Shown: positions 3,961 through 55,892 of the stretch, piece by piece
Position numbering within the stretch: position 1 is the stretch's first letter
Layout: each line of letters starts with the position of its first letter
NCBI RefSeq assembly: GCF_009742725.1
Contig: NZ_WPHG01000010.1
Coordinates: 1 to 55,892 of the forward strand
Direction of reading: 5' to 3'
Origin: Nitratireductor arenosus
GTDB taxonomy: Bacteria; Pseudomonadota; Alphaproteobacteria; Rhizobiales; Rhizobiaceae
DNA: 55,892 nucleotides
The notes under the pieces: model-generated
Databases searched by the model: none
What the model was told of the DNA's origin: nothing
The model's input: the letters and a program-made list of their open reading frames with translations, nothing else
Made by a program: the position numbers and the translations under genes

Positions 3961-4593
3961 TCACCTCGCAAGCAGGTTGCAGATGGTCTTGCCGGGCACG
4001 ATGAAACCCACGCCGACATATGTGGCGCTAGCGAAGCCCATTGGTACCGTCATGACGCCGACCGTGATGCCGACGACCTTTCCATCAGCGTTCATGACAG
4101 GCCCGCCAGATTGCCCCGGAACGGTCGTAATGTCTGTGACAAGCAACGATCCCCATGGACCTATGGAGCGCTCCCCGCCGGCAACGCGGCCCCAATGGCG
4201 GGTGAACTCGACATCAACGGGATTGCCAATCGACATGATACTTGAACCGACAGGCGGTACGACACATGCCAGTTCCGACGCGCTCAATCGCTCGGGGCGG
4301 GAAGCCCTCAACAGCGCCACGTCATAGGCATTGTTCACCCATAGGACTTCCGCCTTCTGGATATCGCCCATGGTGCTTTTGAGCGTGACGGCCTTCGCGT
4401 CTTCCACGACATGCGCGGCAGTGATGACAAAGCCGCCCCCGATATGCACACCGGAACCATGCCCATTGCCCGGCATGACCTTGACCGTGGACTCGGCGTG
4501 GTTATCATCCGCCTTGGTGCTCGACAGACCCATGACGACAAGCGCCATCAACACCGCGACCAATCCGGCCGCGATCCAGTAAAGGACACGCAT
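3961..4593 (-). CDS. membrane-anchored or secreted trypsin-like serine protease
   Basis: A 210-residue protein. Residues 1-28 are a signal peptide or anchor (VLYWIAAGLVAVLMALVVMGL). A chymotrypsin-fold domain follows with the complete triad: His in VITAAHVV, Asp in NNAYDVALL, Ser in VPGQSGGPV. It resembles S1C/DegP-type proteases without PDZ domains, so it would act at the periplasmic face. AGGAGG lies upstream of the ATG. It lies directly after the holin block, which suggests a role in envelope protein cleavage during lysis or in excluding other phages; both are inference. Confidence 0.85.
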   Translation of the reverse strand: MRVLYWIAAGLVAVLMALVVMGLSSTKADDNHAESTVKVMPGNGHGSGVHIGGGFVITAAHVVEDAKAVTLKSTMGDIQKAEVLWVNNAYDVALLRASRPERLSASELACVVPPVGSSIMSIGNPVDVEFTRHWGRVAGGERSIGPWGSLLVTDITTVPGQSGGPVMNADGKVVGITVGVMTVPMGFASATYVGVGFIVPGKTICNLLAR

Positions 4594-7898: not shown

Positions 7899-9278
7899 AT
7901 GGGTGTGGGAATGCGATATCAGCACATGCTATTCGCCGTGGTACTGACCGCCTCGGCACTTATGGGGGATGCCCCGCAAAAACATCTCATTGCCGTGGCA
8001 GTCGCCGGCGCGGCGCTCGCTGCACTAGCCGTAATGTGGGTGACGCGTCCTGCGATTCCCCGAAACATTACGTCCTACGGGCTTATGGCCTTCCTGGCGT
8101 CAATCGCAATTTCACTGCCCGTCGCGCTCTCCAACGGAACAACCGTTTTCGATTGGGCCTTCCGCGCTGCCGCCCCACTGGCCTTGATGGGCGTCTTTTT
8201 CCTGGCGCCGCTCGAGACAGAAGAAGACGAAGCCGCAGTACTCAAGATCATTCTGGCCGCTTGCGTTGCCTGGGCGGCGCTGTCGTTCTGGCAGCTATCC
8301 AGTCACGTCGACTTGTTGTGGTCGTATCGATGGACGGCACTGTCCAACAATTTGATCGTGCCCTTCAATCTCGTCGCGATCGCGGTCCTGCTTTTCGGGC
8401 GGAAACTGGTCAGCCAACGCATGACCTGGCTACTGCTGCTCATCTTCGGGCTTCTGACGGTCGGTGGCGGCTACAGGTCGCACATAGCCATCATTGTCGG
8501 GCTTCTGGCCGCTTTTGCCGTCAGCTTGCCGTTTGTGGCCGAATACCGCCGGCGCGCCGTACCGGTCGTTCTGATCGCGGGGCTGGCTATCGCCCCGTTT
8601 TACGCATCCGGTATGCTGGATCAAAACATGAAAGTCGGCGAGCACGAAGAGAAGATCGTCGCCAAGAACCCGCCCGCGCCAAAAGCACCGCCTGTCACCA
8701 AAGCCCCGCCGGCCGCTATCGTAAAGGTGGAAGCCGGCATACCGTGGCTGCGGAAGTTCCTCGGCAGTCGTGACGGTTCGCGCGTTCTCGAAATCGAATA
8801 CGCGTACCGGAATTTCATGGAGTCGCCGCTAGTCGGAAAGGGTCTCGCCTTTCCGATCCCGTCCGAAATCCACTTCTACAACGACCTTGACTATCTCCAT
8901 CGGCTGGAAGCCGCGAATGGGAAGACTTACCCGTATGTGTACATGATGCACAACTTCCCCGCATCGATAGCAATGACCATGGGCCTCTTGGGGCTGGCGT
9001 CCCTCGGCGTGTTCTTTATCGGGCTGCTATCTCACGCGCTAAGAGGCGGCGCGACCGCAGCCCCCGCCTTCGCGGCGATTGCCGCCATATGCGTGTTTTC
9101 GCTGATTTCGGCCGCGTGGACGCTGCCTCAATTCTCATTGCTTATCGGCGGTCTGGCCGCCGTCGTGTCACAGCGACGAGGCCGACAGCGCAACGACAAC
9201 AAGGCCGGCATAGAGAAGACCGATAAGCAACCGCTCGGTGATCGACATGACCTATTCTCCAGTGGAGATGTAAGGTAG
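7899..9278 (+). CDS. O-antigen ligase / polymerase-like polytopic membrane protein
   Basis: 459 residues with roughly ten transmembrane helices. A large periplasmic loop (residues about 235-345) contains a Pro/Ala/Lys repeat (KNPPAPKAPPVTKAPPAA) and an SRDGSRVLE motif. It is followed by a conserved His-Asn before a helix (MMHNFPASIAMTMGLLGLA), the arrangement of WaaL/Wzy_C proteins. Such enzymes join or polymerise O-antigen on undecaprenyl and lipid A carriers. It lies on the opposite strand to the late genes and converges on the tailspike gene. This is typical of a lysogenic-conversion gene that alters the receptor; that role is inferred. Confidence 0.8.
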   Translation: MGVGMRYQHMLFAVVLTASALMGDAPQKHLIAVAVAGAALAALAVMWVTRPAIPRNITSYGLMAFLASIAISLPVALSNGTTVFDWAFRAAAPLALMGVFFLAPLETEEDEAAVLKIILAACVAWAALSFWQLSSHVDLLWSYRWTALSNNLIVPFNLVAIAVLLFGRKLVSQRMTWLLLLIFGLLTVGGGYRSHIAIIVGLLAAFAVSLPFVAEYRRRAVPVVLIAGLAIAPFYASGMLDQNMKVGEHEEKIVAKNPPAPKAPPVTKAPPAAIVKVEAGIPWLRKFLGSRDGSRVLEIEYAYRNFMESPLVGKGLAFPIPSEIHFYNDLDYLHRLEAANGKTYPYVYMMHNFPASIAMTMGLLGLASLGVFFIGLLSHALRGGATAAPAFAAIAAICVFSLISAAWTLPQFSLLIGGLAAVVSQRRGRQRNDNKAGIEKTDKQPLGDRHDLFSSGDVR

Positions 9279-24853: not shown

Positions 24854-25162
24854 TTACGATGAAAGTTGCTGCCATGCCTGCACGATGTCTTCCTTGACGC
24901 CCTTGGGTTCGGTGTCGCGCGCACCGGCCTTTTCCCAATGCCCCTTGTCGTCACCGACGATTTCGCACCCGGCCTGCTTCACCGCGCGCTCATATTGGCT
25001 ACGGCTCTCGTAGTGGTTGCCATCGACAGGGTTCCACACCGCGTCCATTCCATCGGCGCGAATATAGGGCCGCGACAGATCGGAACGATGAGGCGAAGGC
25101 TTGGGAGCCTTGCGGAAGACGCGCCGGCCGTCGCCAAGCGTGTACCAGTGATATTCAGACAT
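24854..25162 (-). CDS. small hypothetical protein after portal
   Basis: 102 residues from ATG 25162, which overlaps the portal stop (TGATG). It has a WYTLGDGRRVFRKAPKP start and a VWNPVDGNHYESRSQYER block, then an acidic helix. Similar proteins occur next to portal genes in other phages as far as I recall, sometimes annotated as putative metal-binding. Only one Cys is present here, so zinc binding is doubtful. Confidence 0.6.
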   Translation of the reverse strand: MSEYHWYTLGDGRRVFRKAPKPSPHRSDLSRPYIRADGMDAVWNPVDGNHYESRSQYERAVKQAGCEIVGDDKGHWEKAGARDTEPKGVKEDIVQAWQQLSS

Positions 25163-27270
25163 CACCCCACCCACGTTTGATTGGCGGATTGCTGTTTCAG
25201 CATCATCTCGGCGCGGGCGCGCTCCTGATCGGCCTGGAACTCAGCCCATGCCAACTTGTCGCGGCTTTGGAACTCGGCCCACTCACGCTGTTCCTTGCTC
25301 ATGGTCTCCTGAGCGTCGATTTGAGTCTTGGCCTGATCGTTCTTGACCTGCGCCGCCAACTTCTGCTCCTGCAACTTGGCATCGGCCTTGATCTTCTCGA
25401 CGCGCGGGTCAGGCGGCGGGGGTTGATTGCCGGCGCTATCGGCCTTCTTGGTCAGGTTCTCGACCGCCGTTTCAATCACATCCTCCATCGAACGGCCGGC
25501 GCGATAGGCGCGGGCCATGAACAGAAGCGATTCACCGATCACCGGAACCAGCTCGGGCACCTGCATCGCGGTCGGGATGGCCTGCCCCATCAGCCCGCCT
25601 AGAACCGTAACGAATTCCTGCCGGCTTTCCTTTTCGGACTGCTCATCGGCTGCAATGGTGCTGTCCGTTTCGATGCCAATGCGGTATGAACGCAACTGGT
25701 CGTCGCGCATCAGGTTGATGATTTCCTCCTGTGAGGGCTTTTTCAGCATGTCCTCGATTTCTTCCGGGATGGGAGGCATCGGGGGCGGCGGCTGGCCGGT
25801 CGCCTGCGCTTGTTGCGCCATCAGTCGGGCTATCTTCTCGAATTGCTGAATTTGCTTTTCAGCGGCCGCCTTTTCCTCGGCGGTGGGGTATTTGAGGCCG
25901 GATAGACGCCACAACGTATCGGGCTGGAACTTCTCCGACAGGATTTCCGCCGAGATGCGCGTCAGGTCGCGGCAGAACCGCGCCACTTCCTCCTGACGCG
26001 GGCGAATGCGCGTGCCGCCCCACTGCGCCTTTAGCTGCTGCGCGCCGCGCGTTTCTCTCGGGTCAGTCGAGCCCCGGATGATGTCCGAAATACCGGTAAT
26101 CTGGTAAACGTCTTCAATGAGCTTCTGGCGCAATTCGATGCAGCCTTGAAGCACCACAAGGACATTCTCGACCGGTAGCCATTCGATCATCTGCTTGGCG
26201 CCGCCGCCAGAGACGAAAGAAGCCCAGCCCGGCACAGGGACCATCTGATTGCTGGTGCCCGGCTTCAACGCCATTTCAATGGCCGACGATATTTCGCCAT
26301 CGGCGCCGGCAGGGTAAAACCCGACCAGCTTCAGCGCATCCTCAAGCGCGTCGATCTTGGCCGTAAGCTTGTTGATTTCCTGCGCCTGATCCTGGTAATA
26401 GACGTAATCCGGTACAGGCTTCAGCTTATCGGTCGGCAGCGTGGCGTAGAGCGGCTTCGGGCACGGAAAGAAGCCCTTGAGCATATAGAGCGGTGGGCGG
26501 CGATCCAAAACGTCTTCGCCGTAATTCTCCGCCAGCCATATCACCTCGTTATCGCGCTTGGACCACACCTCGAATACGCATGTCTTGTCATCCGGCTTGG
26601 CCTTGGCATATTCGCCCGGCTTGTTCGCCATGTACGCGGCGCGAACCTTATCCCAAACCTCCTTGCCGAAACGCTGTTCGCCCGCCTCCTTGTCCAGATA
26701 GACCTTGCGGCCAACCCACGGCAAATCCTCCCAGCGGCGGGCTTTTGGGTGAATGAAATCCGACCAGTGCACAAAGTCATAGGCTAGCGTTTCGTCGGCC
26801 AGAACCTCTACAAGTTCCGTGCCCTCGTCGCCCTCGTACTGCTCCGTCTTGAATGTAGGTACATAGCGCACCCACATAGTGCCCCGGCCGACAATCAGGT
26901 AGTTGTCACGGGCCGATTTGATCGGGCTATCGATGTCCGACAGGTCGTAGATCGACGTGATAGAGCGCTCAAGAACCTCAGCTACGGCACGCGCAATCGG
27001 ATCGCGATCCGAAAACCGCCTCGATACGGCAGGCTGCGGCGGCTGGGCGTAAACGGCAGGCTGGAGCACCGACACGTTGGCCCAAAGCATCGCGTATTTG
27101 CGCTGTGTGTCGGTCTTTTCCTCACGGTCATCGAGATAAATGCGCTCGATGTTCTTGGCGCGCTTGGTCCAGTCGGCCATGGACTGCTCGGCCTGCTGGA
27201 TATCGTCCAGCCATGCCCTTGCAGAGCGCTTCTTATCATTCTGAGGCGAAGCGTCGGTATATTCGTCCAT
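25162..27270 (-). CDS. portal protein
   Basis: 702 residues, the size of portals of short-tailed phages of the P22 type. Helical core (AEVLERSITSIYDLSDIDSPI, then YLIVGRGTMWVRYVP), a clip-like region, and a long charged C-terminal coiled region (residues about 590-700) that could form a barrel. It abuts the large terminase gene without a gap. It forms the dodecameric DNA gate at one capsid vertex. Confidence 0.85.
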   Translation of the reverse strand: MDEYTDASPQNDKKRSARAWLDDIQQAEQSMADWTKRAKNIERIYLDDREEKTDTQRKYAMLWANVSVLQPAVYAQPPQPAVSRRFSDRDPIARAVAEVLERSITSIYDLSDIDSPIKSARDNYLIVGRGTMWVRYVPTFKTEQYEGDEGTELVEVLADETLAYDFVHWSDFIHPKARRWEDLPWVGRKVYLDKEAGEQRFGKEVWDKVRAAYMANKPGEYAKAKPDDKTCVFEVWSKRDNEVIWLAENYGEDVLDRRPPLYMLKGFFPCPKPLYATLPTDKLKPVPDYVYYQDQAQEINKLTAKIDALEDALKLVGFYPAGADGEISSAIEMALKPGTSNQMVPVPGWASFVSGGGAKQMIEWLPVENVLVVLQGCIELRQKLIEDVYQITGISDIIRGSTDPRETRGAQQLKAQWGGTRIRPRQEEVARFCRDLTRISAEILSEKFQPDTLWRLSGLKYPTAEEKAAAEKQIQQFEKIARLMAQQAQATGQPPPPMPPIPEEIEDMLKKPSQEEIINLMRDDQLRSYRIGIETDSTIAADEQSEKESRQEFVTVLGGLMGQAIPTAMQVPELVPVIGESLLFMARAYRAGRSMEDVIETAVENLTKKADSAGNQPPPPDPRVEKIKADAKLQEQKLAAQVKNDQAKTQIDAQETMSKEQREWAEFQSRDKLAWAEFQADQERARAEMMLKQQSANQTWVG

Positions 27271-28671
27271 CTATACCCGCTCCTGCTTCGGACCCCGCCG
27301 CGTGGTGGCGTGGAACTCGTTGTATGTCATTTCGGTCAAGGGCTTGGGCGGGGGCGCCATGGCCACCAAACCACGCGGACCCTCGACAACGACGCGCTTA
27401 TCCGGTGGCGGGGCGCTGGACAAAGCCGTCATCATTTGGCAGCCGTACGAAAAGCTGTCGCCGGGGTGGCTGGCCCAATCGTGCGCCGGCTCTTTTGAGA
27501 ACGTCTTGGTGTCGTCGTTCCATTCGTATTTCCATGCGCGAAGGCCATCCAACCCATCCTCGCACCGGCTTTCATGAAACTCGCACTGCTTGACCACGGT
27601 GCGCGCCGCGTTGATCCTGTCCGTCTTGCTGGTTTGCGGCACGATCCCGCACTTGCTTTCGCCAAACCCCTTGATGAACTGTTCTATCGGGCTGTGACGG
27701 CTAGCGAAGGTCTTTGTCCTTGCGTCGTGCGGGAGCCATATCTTGCCGAGAGGCCACCCGCGTTCTTCAAGACGCCTTTTCAGGCGCGGTATCCATTCCT
27801 CAGCGTCAAGGCCGCTATCCCCGTCATAATCGAGTAGCGCGAAACCACCCACGCGACGTTGCCAGAACCACCAGCACGCCGTGTCCCTGAAACCAAGGTC
27901 GCTACTGATCTCAATGGCCGGCCCATTCGGATCATAATCCACATGATCGCCTATACGGCCTTCCCTGTCGCCAACGGCAATGAGGCGCGCTAGAATTGCA
28001 CCCTCAGTGACCGTAGCGAAAGCGCCCTCCCAGATATGATCATATTCGTCAGGCCGCTTGCGCTGGTCCTCCAGGCGCTCCATCTCAAGGACGGCAGGGA
28101 ACCACGGATTATCCCGCCAATTGATCTCCACCACCTTCGCATCGTCAGGCGGGTTGAAACGAAATCGCTTATGTGTCGCGCTGTTCTTCTGCTCGGGGTT
28201 CCATGTAACCCAGATTTCAGAACCATGTTCGCGAACGGTCGGTACGGCCTTTTGCCACGCCGCCTCACTAACCGGCTCGGCCTCATCCACCCAAAGCACA
28301 TGAATGCGGGCCTTCGACTTGATGCTGTCCAGGTTGTGGCGAAGGCCAATGAAGATGAACGATATCCGGCCATCTCTGGTTCGGATGAACTTCTCGCCTA
28401 CCTCGTAGTGGGCCGCCAACCAAGGCTCGGACGCAATCGCCTCCTTAACCTCAGCCATCGAACTATCGTCCAGCGAGTTCATGTACTCGCGACCGCAGAC
28501 AATGACGCCGCGCTTGCCCTCTTGGCTTAACTGATAGCCCCTGACAGCGGCCATCTTGGCGAAGGTGCGCGTCTTGCCGCTACCCCGCCCTCCATAAGCA
28601 CATCGATAACGCGCCTGGCCTGCAAAAACAGGGATGAGCTTTGGAGGAAGCTCAATCCGTGCTGTCGTCAT
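27271..28671 (-). CDS. terminase large subunit
   Basis: 466 residues from ATG 28671. ATPase motor: Walker A GGRGSGKT at about residues 26-33 and Walker B VLWVDEAE. The C-terminal RNase-H-like nuclease is marked by SSDLGFRDTACWWFW and LDYDGDSGLDAEEW acidic residues. It pumps and cuts DNA at the portal. It overlaps the small terminase gene by 20 nt. Confidence 0.93.
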   Translation of the reverse strand: MTTARIELPPKLIPVFAGQARYRCAYGGRGSGKTRTFAKMAAVRGYQLSQEGKRGVIVCGREYMNSLDDSSMAEVKEAIASEPWLAAHYEVGEKFIRTRDGRISFIFIGLRHNLDSIKSKARIHVLWVDEAEPVSEAAWQKAVPTVREHGSEIWVTWNPEQKNSATHKRFRFNPPDDAKVVEINWRDNPWFPAVLEMERLEDQRKRPDEYDHIWEGAFATVTEGAILARLIAVGDREGRIGDHVDYDPNGPAIEISSDLGFRDTACWWFWQRRVGGFALLDYDGDSGLDAEEWIPRLKRRLEERGWPLGKIWLPHDARTKTFASRHSPIEQFIKGFGESKCGIVPQTSKTDRINAARTVVKQCEFHESRCEDGLDGLRAWKYEWNDDTKTFSKEPAHDWASHPGDSFSYGCQMMTALSSAPPPDKRVVVEGPRGLVAMAPPPKPLTEMTYNEFHATTRRGPKQERV

Positions 28672-29128
28672 GCCCCGGCGCAACAAGTTCGACACGGGTG
28701 GGCGTCATGGTGCCGTCGCTCGACGTGTGGTCCAGCTCGCGCTTATCGCGCCATTCTTCCGGGCGGCGGTTCTTTAGCCAATTGAACGCCGCCCCGGAAT
28801 CCGGTGGCACATGCTCGACAGTCGCGGCCCTTACCACCTGCCCCTGAAACTGGAAGACCTTTTCACTCTCAAAGGAATAGCCAACGGCCCTGTTAAACAA
28901 CGAACGCTCTACGCGGTCGTCAGCCTTATCCTTGCCAGCCTTGACCGCATGACAAAAATCATCGTGGGTATTTTTCCACCGGTAGATAGTCCGCGTGTCC
29001 ACCTCGAAAAAGTCCGCCAGCTCGTAGTCTGTAGCGCCACGCTCGCAAAGCTTCTTAGCTTGCTTTGCGTACTCTTTCCTGTAGGCCGTAGGCCTGCCGC
29101 GCTCACTCTGCGTTTCGGAATCGACCAT
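28652..29128 (-). CDS. terminase small subunit
   Basis: 158 residues. N-terminal helix-turn-helix (RGATDYELADFFEVDTRTIYRWKN) for recognition of packaging sites, then a helical oligomerisation part (DKADDRVERSLFNRAVGYSFE) and a VKNRRPEEWRDKRELDH-like C-terminal motif typical of TerS. It lies just upstream of the large subunit and begins the packaging module. Confidence 0.9.
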   Translation of the reverse strand: MVDSETQSERGRPTAYRKEYAKQAKKLCERGATDYELADFFEVDTRTIYRWKNTHDDFCHAVKAGKDKADDRVERSLFNRAVGYSFESEKVFQFQGQVVRAATVEHVPPDSGAAFNWLKNRRPEEWRDKRELDHTSSDGTMTPTRVELVAPGHDDSTD

Positions 29129-29130
29129 AG

Positions 29131-29643
29131 TCAGGTATCTTCCTCAGCCGTGGCCTTCAACGCCGCAAGTGCTAGTTTCTCGCAGTCGTACGTTGTGTTG
29201 ACGTCGTCATCAATGACCTCAACGACCTGCCCTCTCACATGGCGAACATCCACGTGCTTGTATTGTCTCTTCATGGCGTTTGCGATGGCCAACGCAACAC
29301 GCTCGACCTCGCCTGCCATCAGATTCTTGCGAATGTTAAGGGCAACCTGCCCGCTTCCCAAAGAACCGGATAGACGCTTCTGCAACGCCGTCGCCTCTTC
29401 GCCCTCCATTTGCAGGGCCAGCTCACGCGCGGCCTTCTGCGCGGCGCGCCGGAAGTCGTGATAATCCATAATCGGCACCCTGGCTTCCGACCAAGGGCTT
29501 GCCACGATATACATCTGCACACCTGATGCAGACTGATAAACCTCTGCGTACAGGTCATCAGACGGAACGATTGCGAATTCCTCGCGCAGAATGTCCAACC
29601 GACTTTTAGCCATCTCATCCACCTCGACCGTTTGATTGGTCAT
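29131..29643 (-). CDS. hypothetical protein upstream of TerS
   Basis: 170 residues, soluble and mixed alpha/beta. The ATG at 29643 has a weak ribosome site; the internal ATG at 29613 (MAKSRLDIL) follows GAGGTGG and could be the real start. The C-terminal part alternates strands and helices (HVDVRHVRGQVVEVIDDD). Ends 2 nt before the TerS ATG, so it belongs to the same transcript. Unknown role. Confidence 0.6.
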   Translation of the reverse strand: MTNQTVEVDEMAKSRLDILREEFAIVPSDDLYAEVYQSASGVQMYIVASPWSEARVPIMDYHDFRRAAQKAARELALQMEGEEATALQKRLSGSLGSGQVALNIRKNLMAGEVERVALAIANAMKRQYKHVDVRHVRGQVVEVIDDDVNTTYDCEKLALAALKATAEEDT

Positions 29644-29666
29644 GTCGTGTGTCGCCTATTGCCGCG

Positions 29667-29930
29667 TCACCACGCCCCCGGCCATTGATCATAACCACAG
29701 CTAGACCAGTTGGCCGCGCCGAACATATCGGCATAAGCCTGCAACTGCCCGGGTAGATCGGTGGCGGTGCTGTTCGTTGCCGCCTTGCACAAACGGAACA
29801 GATGCGCATTGGCGTCACCGCTAGAGTCCGCCGTGAAGAAACGGCTTGCGGCCATCATGTCGCCGTTCCAGTCTAGCGATGTTCCGGCCGTCTCACGAAA
29901 GCGCTTTTGAAGGCCGCCCTGCTGAGACAT
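29667..29930 (-). CDS. small hypothetical protein
   Basis: 87 residues (MSQQGGLQKRFRETAG). Soluble, with two Cys and a Gly/Trp-rich end. Its ATG overlaps the stop of the upstream 42-residue gene. These are the first two protein genes transcribed after the RNA region, before the packaging genes. Function unknown. Confidence 0.55.
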   Translation of the reverse strand: MSQQGGLQKRFRETAGTSLDWNGDMMAASRFFTADSSGDANAHLFRLCKAATNSTATDLPGQLQAYADMFGAANWSSCGYDQWPGAW

Positions 29931-30058
29931 TACGCCAGCTCATCCACCGGCAACCAGTGGTCATCCACGCGTGCAAATGCCTTGCCATCCGCATGGACAA
30001 CAGTGGCGTCCACCGTACCAGAAATGCCAGATGAATGAGAAACAGTCATGCCGATCAT
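29930..30058 (-). CDS. 42-residue hypothetical protein
   Basis: A short frame from ATG 30058 behind a strong AAGGAGAGG. It reads as a beta-rich domain (MIGMTVSHSSGISGTVDATV, later DDHWLPVDELA), resembling small SH3-like phage proteins. It is the first coding sequence downstream of the large non-coding RNA region. The longer open frame to 30265 runs into that structured RNA and is rejected. Confidence 0.6.
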   Translation of the reverse strand: MIGMTVSHSSGISGTVDATVVHADGKAFARVDDHWLPVDELA

Positions 30059-30084
30059 GGTTGGTACCTCTCCTTGGTAAGACG

Positions 30085-30715
30085 ACCCCACGCCCGCCGG
30101 CCTAGCGGATCGCCATGTGCTCATAGCTGGTTTGCGTTGCAGGGACCGGGGCCCCGGCGCGTCGATTCGGCTCTGGGAGCGACGTGGGGGGCCTACGCCG
30201 GCTGCAAGTGTTGCGATAGAAATGATGCTCGCGGGGGCTACGCCGCCGGACCCCATGGCGAGCATTCTACGCGGCGACTCCCCTGATTAGTTTGCCGCCA
30301 GCGTTTCGCTTTATCAGTGCGGAGCTCTGCGGCTCAGGACGGGTGCGCCAATCCAGAAGTCACGCACCATAGTTGCCGGGCTGCTGGCTTACCGGCGGAA
30401 ACAGAACCGTTACCGGTCTGTGGCGTCCTGATTAAGTGCCCGGACACCTCGCTAACAGCTACGAGGCTTCTGTGGTGTTCGGGGGCCGGGCGTTCGTGAA
30501 TACGTTTGCCAGTTACCAGCTTCTGGCGTCACTCTTGCGCGGTGACGGTGCGCATCGGCGCGGTGCAGGCAATCGAGGATGGAGCCTCTAACCGTGAACG
30601 CGCCTGCACGAGCGCTGGACCACGGTGCGCTTGATATCAGAACGGGGCGATTTCCTTCGCCATCGATCTATCCTCCTTCGTGAAACAGCACAGGCATTCG
30701 CGCCTGTGAACCCGC
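30085..30715 (-). ncRNA. candidate large structured RNA (GOLLD/ROOL-like class or new)
   Basis: About 630 nt with no credible long gene but many perfect stems. Pairs include 30563-30570 with 30602-30609, 30438-30443 with 30486-30491 (enclosing 30444-30448/30474-30478 and 30447-30451/30462-30466), 30225-30232 with 30258-30265, 30294-30298 with 30329-30333, and 30689-30695 with 30702-30708. An 8-bp stem (30334-30341/30424-30431) closes a four-way junction of three hairpins, one with a GTAA tetraloop on the minus strand. It sits between tRNAs and late genes. Known giant phage RNAs (GOLLD, ROOL) also lie beside tRNAs; identity is unproven. Confidence 0.6.
30637..30663 (-). CDS. 8-codon mini-ORF with strong ribosome site
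   Basis: AAGGAGGAT lies 8 nt before an ATG that opens MAKEIAPF and then a stop. The initiation site is better than that of many full genes here. It may be a leader peptide, a decoy, or the surviving start of a gene replaced by the structured RNA. The codons also form a small hairpin, so chance is possible. Confidence 0.35.
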   Translation of the reverse strand: MAKEIAPF

Positions 30716-30742: not shown

Positions 30743-30816
30743 TGGTTCCCGCCCATGGATTCGAACCACGGCCTTCAGAGCCAAAATCTGATGTCCTACC
30801 GCTAGACGAGGCGGGA
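30743..30816 (-). tRNA. tRNA-Gln(UUG)
   Basis: A 74-nt cloverleaf on the minus strand. Acceptor TCCCGCC pairs with GGCGGGA, discriminator A, encoded CCA. The anticodon stem CAGA/TCTG closes loop TTTTGGC, giving anticodon UUG. The T-loop carries TTCGAATC. Separated by one base from tRNA-Trp. Confidence 0.95.
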
Positions 30817-30817
30817 T

Positions 30818-30892
30818 TGGCACCGGAGCCCGGAATCGAACCGAGATTTTCAGTTTTGGAGACTGACGTCTTAGCCATTAGACCACACCGAT
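30818..30892 (-). tRNA. tRNA-Trp(CCA)
   Basis: A 75-nt cloverleaf. Acceptor ATCGGTG pairs with CTCCGGT with one T-T mismatch and a T-G wobble. D-stem GTCT/AGAC. The anticodon stem TCAGT/ACTGA closes loop CTCCAAA, giving anticodon CCA. Discriminator G, as expected for tryptophan tRNA, and encoded CCA. Confidence 0.9.
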
Positions 30893-30916: not shown

Positions 30917-30990
30917 TGGTCTGGGCGGCTGGACTCAAACCAGCGGCTTCCGCATTCCAAGTGCGGCACGCTACCAACTGATACTCCCTG
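30917..30990 (-). tRNA. tRNA-Pro(UGG), acceptor stem imperfect
   Basis: A 74-nt cloverleaf. The anticodon stem CCGCA/TGCGG closes loop CTTGGAA, giving anticodon UGG. The T-stem GCTGG/CCAGC is perfect and CCA is encoded. The acceptor CAGGGAG against CGCCCAG has two mismatches (A-A and A-G), so it may be divergent or decaying. The left attachment core is a different proline isoacceptor (GGG). Confidence 0.85.
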
Positions 30991-31185
30991 CGACTTGACG
31001 GTTCTCCAATCCGAACGCTGGAAACCGATCGAAGGCGCTCCGCCGCGAGCATGCGAGCCCCATTCAGGCCCGCACAACCATGATCGCCTTCTTCGTTCGC
31101 GATCTTTGGCATGCCGGAAGTCCTTTGAGACTGACGCCGGGGGCTTGCGTTGCAGAGGCTGGCCCGACGTATACGAACAATAGGT

Positions 31186-31213
31186 GGCGGGCTTCTGTTG
31201 CCAAGTGCCCGCC
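31186..31213 (-). other. 7-bp hairpin downstream of the tmRNA tag
   Basis: GGCGGGC and GCCCGCC form a perfect stem around a 14-nt loop, nine bases after the tag stop codon. It probably belongs to the 3' part of the coding piece (a pseudoknot or helix after the tag frame). There is no T-tract, so it is not a standard terminator. Confidence 0.55.
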
Positions 31214-31221
31214 GAACTCCG

Positions 31222-31266
31222 TTAGGCCGCGAGAGCCTCAACATACGGAACGTTATCGTTGTCCGC
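31222..31266 (-). other. tmRNA proteolysis tag reading frame
   Basis: GCG at 31264-31266 is the likely resume codon. The frame encodes ADNDNVPYVEALAA and stops at TAA. With the alanine from the charged tRNA-like end the added tag is A plus these 14 residues. The AxDN start and LAA end follow the tmRNA tag rule (ClpX recognises the C-terminal LAA, SspB-type adaptors the N-terminal part). Confidence 0.9.
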
Positions 31267-31562
31267 TCAAATTTCGATCCGATAACGGCGGTATCATACC
31301 GAGGTGCGTCACTCGCTTCCAACGGGCGTCGATCCTAATTCATCCCCATTGGTGGAGATGGCGGGTACTGCCCCCGCGTCCGACCGCATTCCACAAGTAC
31401 CGGGTTACACCCATAAGGGGCACGGCAATTTGCCTTAGCCTCCACCACTCACCTTACGGCGAGACATTAGCCCCAGATTGGGGCGATTTGTAAGAGGTAC
31501 CGACCTCCGCCCGACGCATCACGCGTCAGTCTGACACTGCATGTCATAAATTCGCGTTTCAG

Positions 31563-32177
31563 TCAACCCTTAAAATGACGGTTGAGGTCTGAAAGCACCG
31601 TCCTTAGATCGCCAACGAGGTCTTCGCATTGCTTGTCTCGGAGCACGATCTGTTCCAACGCTTCCGGCACACGTGATCCTTTGTTGTTCCGCCAGCACTC
31701 CATAACGATGTCCATCGCCTTCTTCCGTCGAGCACATGCCGTCATGGCCCAACGTTCCGCTGCTTCCTCGTCGCCCGTTCCGAGCCCTCTATGCTCGTAG
31801 TAGGCGCCGGGAGACAGGACCGCCTTGGCGTAGTCGTTGGCGACTTCCTGGAACGTCAGGGCGGCGTAGTAGTTGGCCGTACTCAGGCTCATTGCCGGCT
31901 GGGGAACGTCGAATTTTCGGCCCGTCCGTTCGGCGTGATTGGCCTTCTTTTTCCATGCCAAATATGCGAGGTGCAACCGGCCTATGAATGTGCTGGCTTG
32001 TGGATCGGCGGCATCTGCTACCGAAAGCCGATGCATCCGGGCTCTGGCTTCCACGGCGAGCTTATAGCCGTTCTGGTCGGATCGGATAGCGCGTCCATTG
32101 GGCTCGCGAAGCACGCCGTCTTTGCGTGGCCTGCCCCGCTTGGCCTTGATCTTCGCGCTTTGTGTTCTGGCCTTCAA
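31563..32177 (-). CDS. conserved phage protein with AT-hook
   Basis: 204 residues. The basic N-terminus holds an AT-hook (KRGRPRKDG), followed by a helical domain (STFIGRLHLAYLAWKKKANHAERTG, ANYYAALTFQEVANDYAKAVL). It is likely DNA-associated. I associate this protein type with rhizobial phages but know no function. It overlaps its upstream neighbour by ATGA. Its stop overlaps a TTGACT that could be part of the promoter of the RNA region. Confidence 0.65.
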   Translation of the reverse strand: MKARTQSAKIKAKRGRPRKDGVLREPNGRAIRSDQNGYKLAVEARARMHRLSVADAADPQASTFIGRLHLAYLAWKKKANHAERTGRKFDVPQPAMSLSTANYYAALTFQEVANDYAKAVLSPGAYYEHRGLGTGDEEAAERWAMTACARRKKAMDIVMECWRNNKGSRVPEALEQIVLRDKQCEDLVGDLRTVLSDLNRHFKG

Positions 32178-42402: not shown

Positions 42403-43347
42403 ATGGCCAAGACGAAAAAGAAATTCGCCACCGAGCCGAAATCGGCCGTCACGGCCTACAAGGGTTTCAACAAAGACCTGACCTGTCGCGGGTTTCAGTA
42501 CGAAGTCGGCAAGACCTATGACAACGGCGGCAAAACCGTCGTTCGGTGCGGCGAAGGCGGGTTCCATTGGGTGGAAATGCCGCTTGATGCATTCAATTAC
42601 TACGCGCCCGGAACAAGCCGCTTCGCAGAAGTCACGCCGGCTGGCGATATCGCATGCGAAGACGATTCGGACACCAAGGGCGCGTCCGGCGTCCTGACGA
42701 TCAAGGTCGAAATTTCGATTGGAGAACTGACGCGCCGTGCCGTTGCGTGGGTCGCCGAGAAGGCAAAGTCGCAGGGTAACGGTCAGTTTGCGGCGGGCAC
42801 TCGCGGCCATGCCTCGGCGGCGGGCTATCGCGGCCATGCCTCGGCGGCGGGCACTGGCGGCCATGCCTCGGCGGCGGGCACTGGCGGCCATGCCTCGGCG
42901 GCGGGCGATTACGGCCATGCCTCGGCGGCGGGCACTCGCGGCCATGCCTCGGCGGCGGGCTATCGCGGCCATGCCTCGGCGGCGGGCACTGGCGGCCATG
43001 CCTCGGCGGCGGGCGATTACGGCCATGCCTCGGCGGCGGGCACTCGCGGCCATGCCTCGGCGGCGGGCACTGGCGGCCATGCCTCGGCGGCGGGCACTGG
43101 CGGCCATGCCTCGGCGGCGGGCGATTACGGCCATGCCTCGGCGGCGGGAAAAAACTCCATCGCCCACGCCGCTGGAGTAGCTAGCACAGCGACGGCCCGT
43201 GAAGGCGGTGCGATCAGCCTCGCCGCGTATGACGATGATTACAATCTGGTCGCCGTCCGCTCGTCGCTCGTCGGCCAGAACGGCGTCGAGGCCGGGAAGA
43301 CGTATCGCCTGACCGTTGGTGGCGAGTTCGAGGAAGTTGCGGCCTAA
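42403..43347 (+). CDS. DUF7666-like protein with 13 nonapeptide repeats
   Basis: 314 residues. The N-terminal part (AYKGFNKDLTCRGFQYEVGK, then GGFHWVEMPLDAFNYYAPG) is a DUF7666-type domain. Residues about 132-248 are 13 perfect-phase repeats of G-x-x-GHASAA where x-x is TR, YR, TG or DY. The repeat probably folds as a beta-solenoid. The C-terminal part (YRLTVGGEFEEV) is soluble. Unknown function; the array invites copy-number change. Confidence 0.75.
   Translation: MAKTKKKFATEPKSAVTAYKGFNKDLTCRGFQYEVGKTYDNGGKTVVRCGEGGFHWVEMPLDAFNYYAPGTSRFAEVTPAGDIACEDDSDTKGASGVLTIKVEISIGELTRRAVAWVAEKAKSQGNGQFAAGTRGHASAAGYRGHASAAGTGGHASAAGTGGHASAAGDYGHASAAGTRGHASAAGYRGHASAAGTGGHASAAGDYGHASAAGTRGHASAAGTGGHASAAGTGGHASAAGDYGHASAAGKNSIAHAAGVASTATAREGGAISLAAYDDDYNLVAVRSSLVGQNGVEAGKTYRLTVGGEFEEVAA
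42796..43146 (+). repeat. 13 x 27-bp tandem coding repeat
   Basis: Thirteen contiguous copies of a 27-bp unit (GGC xxx xxx GGC CAT GCC TCG GCG GCG). Only the two variable codons differ, in the order TR, YR, TG, TG, DY, TR, YR, TG, DY, TR, TG, TG, DY. The nearly identical DNA indicates recent expansion or ongoing homogenisation. The composition leaves an opposite frame open too. Confidence 0.97.
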
Positions 43348-54207: not shown

Positions 54208-54524
54208 CGGAATCCATTGCCGTGAGCGCGAGAGACATCATCAAGCAGGCGTTCGAATCCGAGTTCGACGACGCATGCAGTGGCGATGCGTTCGCTGACA
54301 AATGCGTGACTATTCTGCATGAAGAAGGCTTCACGGTCCTCGCACCCAGAGAACTCGACGGGGAGACGCTGGAAGCCGCTGCAACGGTCGCCGACAAACG
54401 CGCGGCCACGGCCTGGATCCTATCCCATGAAGCCGCCCGCGCGTTGTTGGAGGCACTACCTGACGCCATCCGCGCCCTGAAAGCCTCGCCGGATGAAACG
54501 GATGGCGAGGCCAAGCAGGAATGA
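54204..54524 (+). CDS. 106-residue hypothetical protein
   Basis: GTG start at 54204 overlapping the upstream stop, with GGAGG at 7-nt spacing. Acidic, helical (RDIIKQAFESEFDDACSGDA, then ADKRAATAWILSHEAARALL). Unknown. Last gene before the excisionase. Confidence 0.55.
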   Translation: MTESIAVSARDIIKQAFESEFDDACSGDAFADKCVTILHEEGFTVLAPRELDGETLEAAATVADKRAATAWILSHEAARALLEALPDAIRALKASPDETDGEAKQE

Positions 54525-54847
54525 CACTTCTCTCACCCGCCCAAGCCGCACAACAACTGTGCATTTCCGAAAAGCAGTTGCGAGCCCTGACTTGCGCTGG
54601 CGAAATCCCGTACATCAATATCGGGCTCGGGGACAAGCGGGAAACCAGACGATACGACCCCGCAGACCTTGCCAAGTTTCGGGAGGCACGAAAATGTCAG
54701 TCTACAAAAGAGCCGGTCAAACCGTCTACGCCTACGATTTCAGGGTCCGTGGTGTACGATTTTCAGGCTCGACGGGCTGCACGAGCCGCCGCGAAGCGGA
54801 ACGCTACGAGGAAGCCGCCCGCACGGCAGCGCAAGCCCAGGTCATAG
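54521..54847 (+). CDS. excisionase-like HTH protein
   Basis: 108 residues. Winged HTH of the AlpA/MerR-like excisionase type (SPAQAAQQLCISEKQLRALT, then RRYDPADLAKFREARK). The C-terminal basic tail (YDFQARRAARAAAKRNATRK) overlaps the first 154 nt of the integrase gene in another frame. In related elements I recall a similar tail with a conserved V-x-DF-ARR motif, so the overlap is probably real. It would direct excision. Confidence 0.75.
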   Translation: MTLLSPAQAAQQLCISEKQLRALTCAGEIPYINIGLGDKRETRRYDPADLAKFREARKCQSTKEPVKPSTPTISGSVVYDFQARRAARAAAKRNATRKPPARQRKPRS

Positions 54848-55809
54848 ATCGCACCAAGCCGATGACGTTCGCCGTCGCATCGTCGCTCTATTGGGATGAG
54901 GTTGGCCAGCACCACCGAAACCACGTCGATACGGAACGGTCGCTGGCGTGGCTTCAAAAGCAAATCGGCAAGGGTACAAGAATATCGGACATTTCCGCCG
55001 CCACGATAGCCTCAGCAGTGGCGAAGCGCCGTGGCGAGGGGGTAAGTGCCGCGACGGTCAACAGGAGCGTGTGTGAGCCGCTACGGGCGATCTTGAAGCG
55101 ATGCGGCGGTGTCTGGGGGCAGAAGGTCCAGCCGATAAGCTGGAAGGACCATTTTTTGAAGGAGCCGCAGGAGCGGATTCGCGAGGCTAACATAGACGAG
55201 GAAGCGAAATTGCTGGCGACGATCCGGGGCGATTATCGGCCGGCGCTGCGCTTCGCGTTCATGTCGGGATGCCGGTTGAATGAGATCGTCACGCTGGAAT
55301 GGTCGCGCGTCGATTTCTTCAATCGCCAGTACACGGTGATCGGCAAGGGCGACAAGGCCCGGTCCATCCCGATGACCGATGCCGTCTATGAATTGCTTTG
55401 GGGAGAGAAGGACAACCATCCGACAAGCGTGTTCACCTATAAGGCGGCGAAGACGAGGGACGGCAAGCAGCGGGGCAAGAGATACCCGCTGACGGAAAAC
55501 GGATTGAAAACGCAGTGGCGGCGCGTCAAGCGGGATGCCGGCGTGGCCAACTTCCGGTTTCACGACACGAGGCACACGGCGGCTACTAGACTGGTGCGCG
55601 CGACAGGCAATTTGAAGATGGCGCAGAAGCTACTAGGCCACACCCATCTGACGACGACCTCGCGTTACGCGCACGTCACGACGGACGATCTTCGGGCAGG
55701 CTTGGAGGCGGCTCATTCGAGTGTCGGGAAAGGTGCGGCGGTGGGGCCGGATGCACGGTTCGATGCAAAATCTGCCACGGAATCTCCACCGGCTCTGAAA
55801 AAGTCCTGA
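54694..55809 (+). CDS. int: tyrosine-recombinase integrase
   Basis: 371 residues from ATG 54694 (GGGAGG upstream). Core-binding domain, then catalytic residues in order: Arg in SGCRLNEIVTLEW, Lys around VIGKGDKARSIPM, His-x-x-Arg in FHDTRHTAATR, His in LLGHTHLTTTSRY with the Tyr nucleophile of SRYAHV. It recombines attP with the tRNA-Pro attB. It lies 44 bp from the right repeat. Confidence 0.95.
   Translation: MSVYKRAGQTVYAYDFRVRGVRFSGSTGCTSRREAERYEEAARTAAQAQVIDRTKPMTFAVASSLYWDEVGQHHRNHVDTERSLAWLQKQIGKGTRISDISAATIASAVAKRRGEGVSAATVNRSVCEPLRAILKRCGGVWGQKVQPISWKDHFLKEPQERIREANIDEEAKLLATIRGDYRPALRFAFMSGCRLNEIVTLEWSRVDFFNRQYTVIGKGDKARSIPMTDAVYELLWGEKDNHPTSVFTYKAAKTRDGKQRGKRYPLTENGLKTQWRRVKRDAGVANFRFHDTRHTAATRLVRATGNLKMAQKLLGHTHLTTTSRYAHVTTDDLRAGLEAAHSSVGKGAAVGPDARFDAKSATESPPALKKS

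Positions 55810-55853: not shown

Positions 55854-55892
<39 letters not shown>

Follow-up and report, generated by a model that had tools for sequence, protein, structure and literature searches.

The DNA analyzed here (the window, 55,892 nucleotides from Nitratireductor arenosus) constitutes a prophage that has inserted into tRNA-Pro(TGG). It is flanked by 39-bp direct repeats that form part of this tRNA gene, and both junctions are seen, because one contig end (C10) carries tRNA-Pro(TGG) running into the window's first 120 bases and another (C3) carries the 39-bp repeat followed by its last bases. A permuted transfer-messenger RNA (tmRNA, ssrA) gene and three tRNAs lie on one strand of the prophage, between an open reading frame ending at 31563 and three others (29131-30265) upstream of TerS. 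The features discussed below are as follows.

1-55892, no strand assigned: whole prophage, with 39-bp direct repeats at 1-39 and 55854-55892
25162-27270: portal
27271-28695: TerL
28652-29128: TerS
30743-30816, minus strand: tRNA-Gln(TTG), from ARAGORN and Infernal
30818-30892, minus strand: tRNA-Trp(CCA), from ARAGORN and Infernal
30920-30990, minus strand: divergent tRNA, TGG (Pro) read from the loop CTTGGAA; weak match to RF00005, 33.4 bits
31183-31497, minus strand: permuted tmRNA (ssrA) gene, full alpha_tmRNA match (RF01849)
31350-31412, minus strand: acceptor piece, T arm to CCA, from the RF04321 alignment; 5' end from the model match
31348-31349, minus strand: 2-nt spacer AT between CCA and GGGG, from the sequence
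31183-31347, minus strand: coding piece with GGGGATG, AATTAGGATCGAC, tag and 3' pseudoknot region; exact 3' end inferred
31222-31263, minus strand: probable tag frame GAC...GCC TAA, DNDNVPYVEALAA-stop; the A at -4 is base 31267
31186-31219, minus strand: 3' pseudoknot, S1 GAGT/ACTT (by eye) and S2 GGCGGGC/GCCCGCC (by computation)
54493-55809: integrase

Other phage proteins include a head-protein match, an amidase, a DNA polymerase III beta-like clamp and a methyltransferase match, while relatives of the portal are found in Bradyrhizobium, Rhizobium, Myxococcus and other phages. A preliminary description had placed the tmRNA in a prophage next to three tRNAs, and both statements hold: integrase, terminases, portal, repeat and junctions identify the prophage, and ARAGORN calls the Trp(CCA) and Gln(TTG) genes beside the tmRNA, with a weak third from Infernal. 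This third tRNA has a poorly paired D arm and no ARAGORN call; with its TGG (Pro) anticodon, it lies inside a prophage that occupies the host tRNA-Pro(TGG) gene.

The tmRNA locus is confirmed as a real, apparently intact permuted gene of the alphaproteobacterial type, as first described from the minus strand. With Rfam and Infernal both permuted-type models match far above their cut-offs: alpha_tmRNA (RF01849) over its full length (model positions 1-355) at 31183-31497 with 131.5 bits (cut-off 50, E 1.1e-35), and tmRNA_permuted (RF04321) at 31222-31412, also on the minus strand, with 126.2 bits (cut-off 47, E 2.4e-24). The order is permuted, with the 3' half of the acceptor and CCA upstream of the acceptor 5' half. 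Read 5' to 3' on the minus strand, the T stem GCGGG, loop GGCAGTA and CCCGC are followed by the acceptor strand CATCTCC, an A and CCA, and then by the spacer AT, the acceptor strand GGGGATG, AATTAGGATCGAC, the tag, its stop and GGAGTTCGGCGGGCACTTGGCAACAGAAGCCCGCC. The acceptor end CATCTCC-A-CCA two bases before the acceptor 5' half and the G3-U70 pair, both proposed earlier, are present in the sequence, and a pairing check gives 7/7 acceptor pairs and 5/5 T stem pairs. An A73 can be read before CCA, so that the paired acceptor stem carries both alanine identity elements, G3-U70 and A73.

ARAGORN made no call for this tmRNA in the window. Folded as a single strand, the precursor is no more stable than its shuffles (z -0.52), so the evidence for the gene is the covariance-model score, to which folding energy adds nothing. 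The 7-bp pseudoknot stem S2 is equalled by 5.5% of shuffles, in a blunt test for which the median of host-family ssrA genes is 52%. By eye, double changes relative to the host ssrA keep the pairing of the T stem (GCGGG/CCCGC vs CCGGG/CCCGG in the host), the acceptor (GGGGATG/CATCTCC vs GGGGGCG/CGCCTCC) and the long-range helix (GGGTG/CACCT vs GGCGA/TTGCC). A scan for expression signals detected two promoter-like sites, which lie within the gene or at its end with none upstream of it, and no terminator-like site.

The most conspicuous feature of the gene is its spacer, and we compared it with those of relatives. A first viral scan, using a pattern for spacers of 0-12 nt with the T-loop left free, gave 87 viral stretches. 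Apart from the window's own record, which was among them, these 86 show spacers measuring 3 (1 stretch), 5 (12), 7 (15), 8 (24), 9 (27), 11 (6) or 12 nt (1). Longer spacers of 24-111 nt occur in at least 51 matches among the at least 120 loci of a second viral scan, whose search expression covered spacers up to 120 nt, and host-family ssrA spacers measure 26-51 nt (36 matches, 32 distinct). When 84,980 species of a genome collection were searched with a pattern for spacers of 0-4 nt, 24 stretches were found, seven of them with 2 nt (AT in five, AC in two). These seven loci score 165-311 bits with RF01849 and are all alpha-type. ARAGORN calls a tmRNA with a tag in each of the six given to it (L109, L110, L111, L113, L119, L123), the seventh (L115) ending at a contig edge and being left out of that run. 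A 2-nt tmRNA spacer is therefore rare but occurs elsewhere, within the known range. The spacer had been described as very short, which stands insofar as it is rare; the doubt whether it is normal does not, and the seven loci, with six of six tested called by ARAGORN, rule out that it is too short for a real gene. Most relatives have spacers that end in AT (73/84 in the first viral set, 43 of the 51 listed second-set viral matches and 29/36 host-family matches), so the phage spacer is just this common ending. A parallel is offered by an archaeal permuted tRNA whose spacer is 1 nt long; how so short a piece is removed is called intriguing in the available text of PMC3978253.

Whether the T-loop GGCAGTA is normal had also been questioned, a doubt that was not borne out. 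It is the commonest loop among viral matches of the first scan (62/84), to which the count is limited as the pattern of the second scan partly fixed the loop, and an abnormal T-loop is thereby ruled out. The host loop, GGCGGTA, is found in 30/36 host-family matches. Many of these rows are close kin, since distinct forms number only 26 in the viral and 30 in the host-family set. In 8/36 host-family matches the T stem is not fully paired; we read these as tandem copies.

A tag frame with a stop is present as earlier described, reading ADNDNVPYVEALAA-stop at 31266-31222 on the minus strand, although its first codon was probably placed one codon too early. The codon originally chosen, GCG (31264-31266), has a U at -4 and is disfavored. 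The following GAC (31263) is preceded by GAGCG, with A at -4, G at -3 and G at -5; it lies 64 nt after TCGAC, an offset shared by 31/32 host-family genes, and its region is aligned by MAFFT with the host GCA. The resume codon is probably GAC, because only then is there a frame-setting A at -4. In E. coli tmRNA the reading frame is set mainly by the corresponding base, A86, which lies at -4 relative to the resume codon, according to the portion of PMC2481249 available, where A86 changed to C or U gives no activity in a survival assay, A86C with another tag template resumes in the +1 frame, and U85C and U85G have no adverse effect.

Among the tags matched by the search expression (2 short-spacer genome, 17 viral and 13 other matches were dropped without a tag), A at -4 is found in 32/32 host-family, 21/22 short-spacer genome, 63/69 viral and 39/46 other tags. 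The first codon of these 169 is Ala in 162 and Asp in none, and none has G at -1 as found before the phage GAC; an Asp resume codon GAC would thus be unusual. On this reading of the sequence the added phage peptide would most likely be the charged Ala followed by DNDNVPYVEALAA. The host tag peptide is Ala plus ANDNYAEARLAA, and comparison with the host ssrA upholds the earlier claim that the two tags differ. An LAA end is a protease signal, and LAA is the C-terminus of the phage tag. Since the phage tag keeps both an (A)xNDN start and the LAA end, its differences from the host tag would seem to argue against a new fate for the tagged proteins.

The host has one ssrA copy, intact and on another contig (304.5 bits), and the only smpB in the genome is the host's, on a third contig, so partners for the phage tmRNA are at hand. 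The cores of the phage and host ssrA are 62.5% identical (145/232 aligned bases), identity of the phage core to 144 other tmRNAs is at most 66%, and the host genome has no further DNA match to the phage gene. Measured from TCGAC to the pseudoknot's end, the phage copy spans 147 nt, the viral median being 146 (n=123) and the host-family range 189-196 (n=36, including a few genes double-counted via overlapping loci). In a single, midpoint-rooted FastTree run on 238 columns the phage copy clusters with Mesorhizobium phage Cp1R7A-A1 and the viral loci L317, L321 and L350 (support 0.89), and the larger group around this cluster also contains host-family ssrA genes. The low identity to the host, the compact phage-type coding piece and the clustering with phage tmRNAs indicate an old phage gene and not a recent host capture. 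Identity, tree and the lack of a close host DNA match rule out recent capture of the host ssrA.

Across the host family, RF01849 matches in 290/297 genomes and, under stricter filters, matches twice in 6/297. Among these six, the second match lies within a phage only in the window's genome and in G221. The latter (L361, G221:C34:120000-139000) is a second prophage-borne permuted tmRNA, accompanied by genes for an integrase, a primase-like protein, an RtcB RNA ligase and a nicotinamide phosphoribosyltransferase; its core is identical to that of L321. Genome G046 has two near-equal tmRNA matches, G102 and G179 have tandem ssrA copies and G133 an adjacent piece (L229, L230, L231), the last three being taken as traces of island integration into ssrA.

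No tmRNA match was found in named phages by DNA similarity at E 1e-5. Raising the limit to E 10 gave 59 matching records, those listed mostly via a short T-arm stretch. Six of 20 listed records were checked (MT188704, MN988519, OL955261, PQ287320, MF663786 and KU682439; L233-L238), and all six carry a permuted tmRNA by both Rfam and ARAGORN. Five of them have no RNA feature annotated over the tmRNA, and in MN988519 the sole mention, "transfer-messenger RNA, SsrA", is in the note attached to a neighboring tRNA-Ile. A GOLLD RNA (169.7 bits) overlaps a tRNA in Caulobacter phage BL57 (L236:1107-1593). In a hand-picked, non-random comparison ARAGORN called all 12 bacterial-genome loci and all six named phages vs 8/18 IMG/VR loci, the latter identified by DNA pattern alone; L317 and L321, tree neighbors of the phage copy, have no ARAGORN call. 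Because of the 8/18, phage tmRNAs may be undercounted, and ARAGORN-based phage surveys in particular may miss permuted ones. Among terminase relatives in IMG/VR, a regular expression recognized no tmRNA in 53 loci besides the window (L155-L207), and ARAGORN found none in 38 of these (L155-L192); short loci may not reach the site. As these relatives have no recognizable tmRNA, the gene does not belong to the fixed content of the phage group, and the tRNA/tmRNA cassette probably comes and goes among relatives.

Two-piece tmRNA was reportedly shown in Caulobacter by Keiler et al. in 2000. The phage gene resembles the alphaproteobacterial permuted tmRNAs of RF01849 in its piece order, G3-U70, T-loop type and AGGATCGAC segment, and in having a tag with NDN and LAA and a 3' CAACAGAA pseudoknot region. 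It differs from host-family genes in a coding piece about 44 nt shorter, with the gap after the tag, in a spacer of 2 rather than 26-51 nt and in its probable Asp resume codon. The T stem GCGGG/CCCGC is shared with Mesorhizobium phage Cp1R7A-A1 (MT188704, L233), its neighbor in the 0.89 cluster; this 131-kb phage has a 93-nt spacer, another tag and a gene annotated as tRNA splicing ligase near the tmRNA, itself unannotated in MT188704.

An alphaproteobacterial-type permuted tmRNA is also reported in the methylophage Melnitz, which the available text of PMC9004378 describes as a marine myophage with a predicted glutamine riboswitch and no integrase found, whereas the present copy lies in an integrated prophage. 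The same text counts two-piece tmRNAs as 53/133 unique phage tmRNA structures by ARAGORN, 50/53 from marine or aquatic samples (PMC9004378). The accessible parts of two further papers give 79 unique bacteriophage sequences in the current tmRNA database (PMC11915505) and tmRNA genes in Bradyrhizobium elkanii phages (PMC12656738). Permuted tmRNAs in phages are thus already in print, and the additions here are the minimal spacer and the unusual, probable Asp resume codon. The literature surveyed, which largely excludes subscription papers, contained no publication that we recognized on the present prophage or on a 2-nt tmRNA spacer.

Our preferred reading, to which we give a probability of about 0.8, is that the locus is an intact alphaproteobacterial permuted-type ssrA of a temperate phage, used for ribosome rescue within a translation-support cassette. 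From its features we infer expression, processing, charging, tagging and a benefit to the phage. The acceptor piece, CCA, AU and the coding piece would all be parts of one precursor, which RNase P would cut before GGGG; two bases would be trimmed from CCA-AU, and the two pieces would remain paired after cleavage. Host AlaRS would then charge the acceptor via G3-U70 and host SmpB deliver the charged phage RNA to stalled ribosomes, where translation would resume at GAC, appending Ala-DNDNVPYVEALAA, and the LAA end would direct the product to a host protease. The tmRNA and the tRNAs for Pro, Trp and Gln would constitute a small translation-support cassette by which ribosomes stay usable during phage growth. 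It is plausible that the phage copy re-tags or rescues ribosomes during takeover. The temperate phage carries a well-formed ribosome-rescue RNA in a host with its own, clearly different copy, and why phages keep tmRNA could be tested in one lysogen, because the two tags are distinguishable by mass spectrometry.

The gene may also serve as a counter-defence spare part, substituting for or backing up translation factors when tRNAs, tmRNA or mRNAs are cleaved by a host defence. The three accompanying tRNAs would suit such a role, and in the two Cp1-type relatives examined the tmRNA has a gene for an RtcB-type RNA ligase no more than about 1.5 kb away, as might be expected for RNA damage control, but no ligase was found among the window proteins scanned (a subset of the open reading frames). 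We regard this as rather unlikely, although it is compatible with the rescue reading and differs from it in why the phage keeps the gene. Distinctly doubtful is a minimal split tmRNA, in which the spacer has shrunk to AU, one RNase P cut and a two-base trim could yield both mature ends, and translation resumes at Asp. Should the phage RNA then prevail over the host's in the competition for SmpB, induction of a lysogen would shift its tags from host-type to phage-type. The 2-nt spacer also offers a simple natural substrate for studying how permuted precursors get cut.

A decoy that binds SmpB or AlaRS without tagging, and so dampens host trans-translation, seems very unlikely. A tag-less form like the tmRNA-related RNA borne by mycobacteriophage DS6A, which keeps little beyond the tRNA-like domain, is reported to act so in the available portions of PMC4131195 and PMC11915505, and should the 2-nt spacer hinder processing, the acceptor loop would stay closed and charging would be prevented. 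Unlike DS6A, however, the present copy retains a full tag frame, stop, A at -4 and the 3' pseudoknot region with its stem, and there are seven other loci with 2-nt spacers, the six given to ARAGORN all being called as tmRNAs with tags. Scarcely credible is a decaying remnant of the host ssrA acquired through imprecise excision: integration sites can indeed carry ssrA pieces that stem from the host, as the tandem copies or pieces in three host-family genomes illustrate, but this prophage occupies tRNA-Pro and not ssrA, and its tmRNA, whose stems are intact with paired changes, is only 62.5% identical to the host ssrA and no more than 66% to any of 144 others, groups with phage tmRNAs and matches nothing else in the host genome at the DNA level.

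Three further genes of the window may be mentioned. A trypsin-like peptidase (PF13365) at 3961-4593, in the left part of the prophage, has weak PADLOC matches, probably via its protease domain. The Wzy_C O-antigen ligase-type protein at 7899-9278 possibly alters the host surface, and a DUF7666 protein with collagen-like phage matches contains a 27-bp tandem repeat array at 42709-43229.
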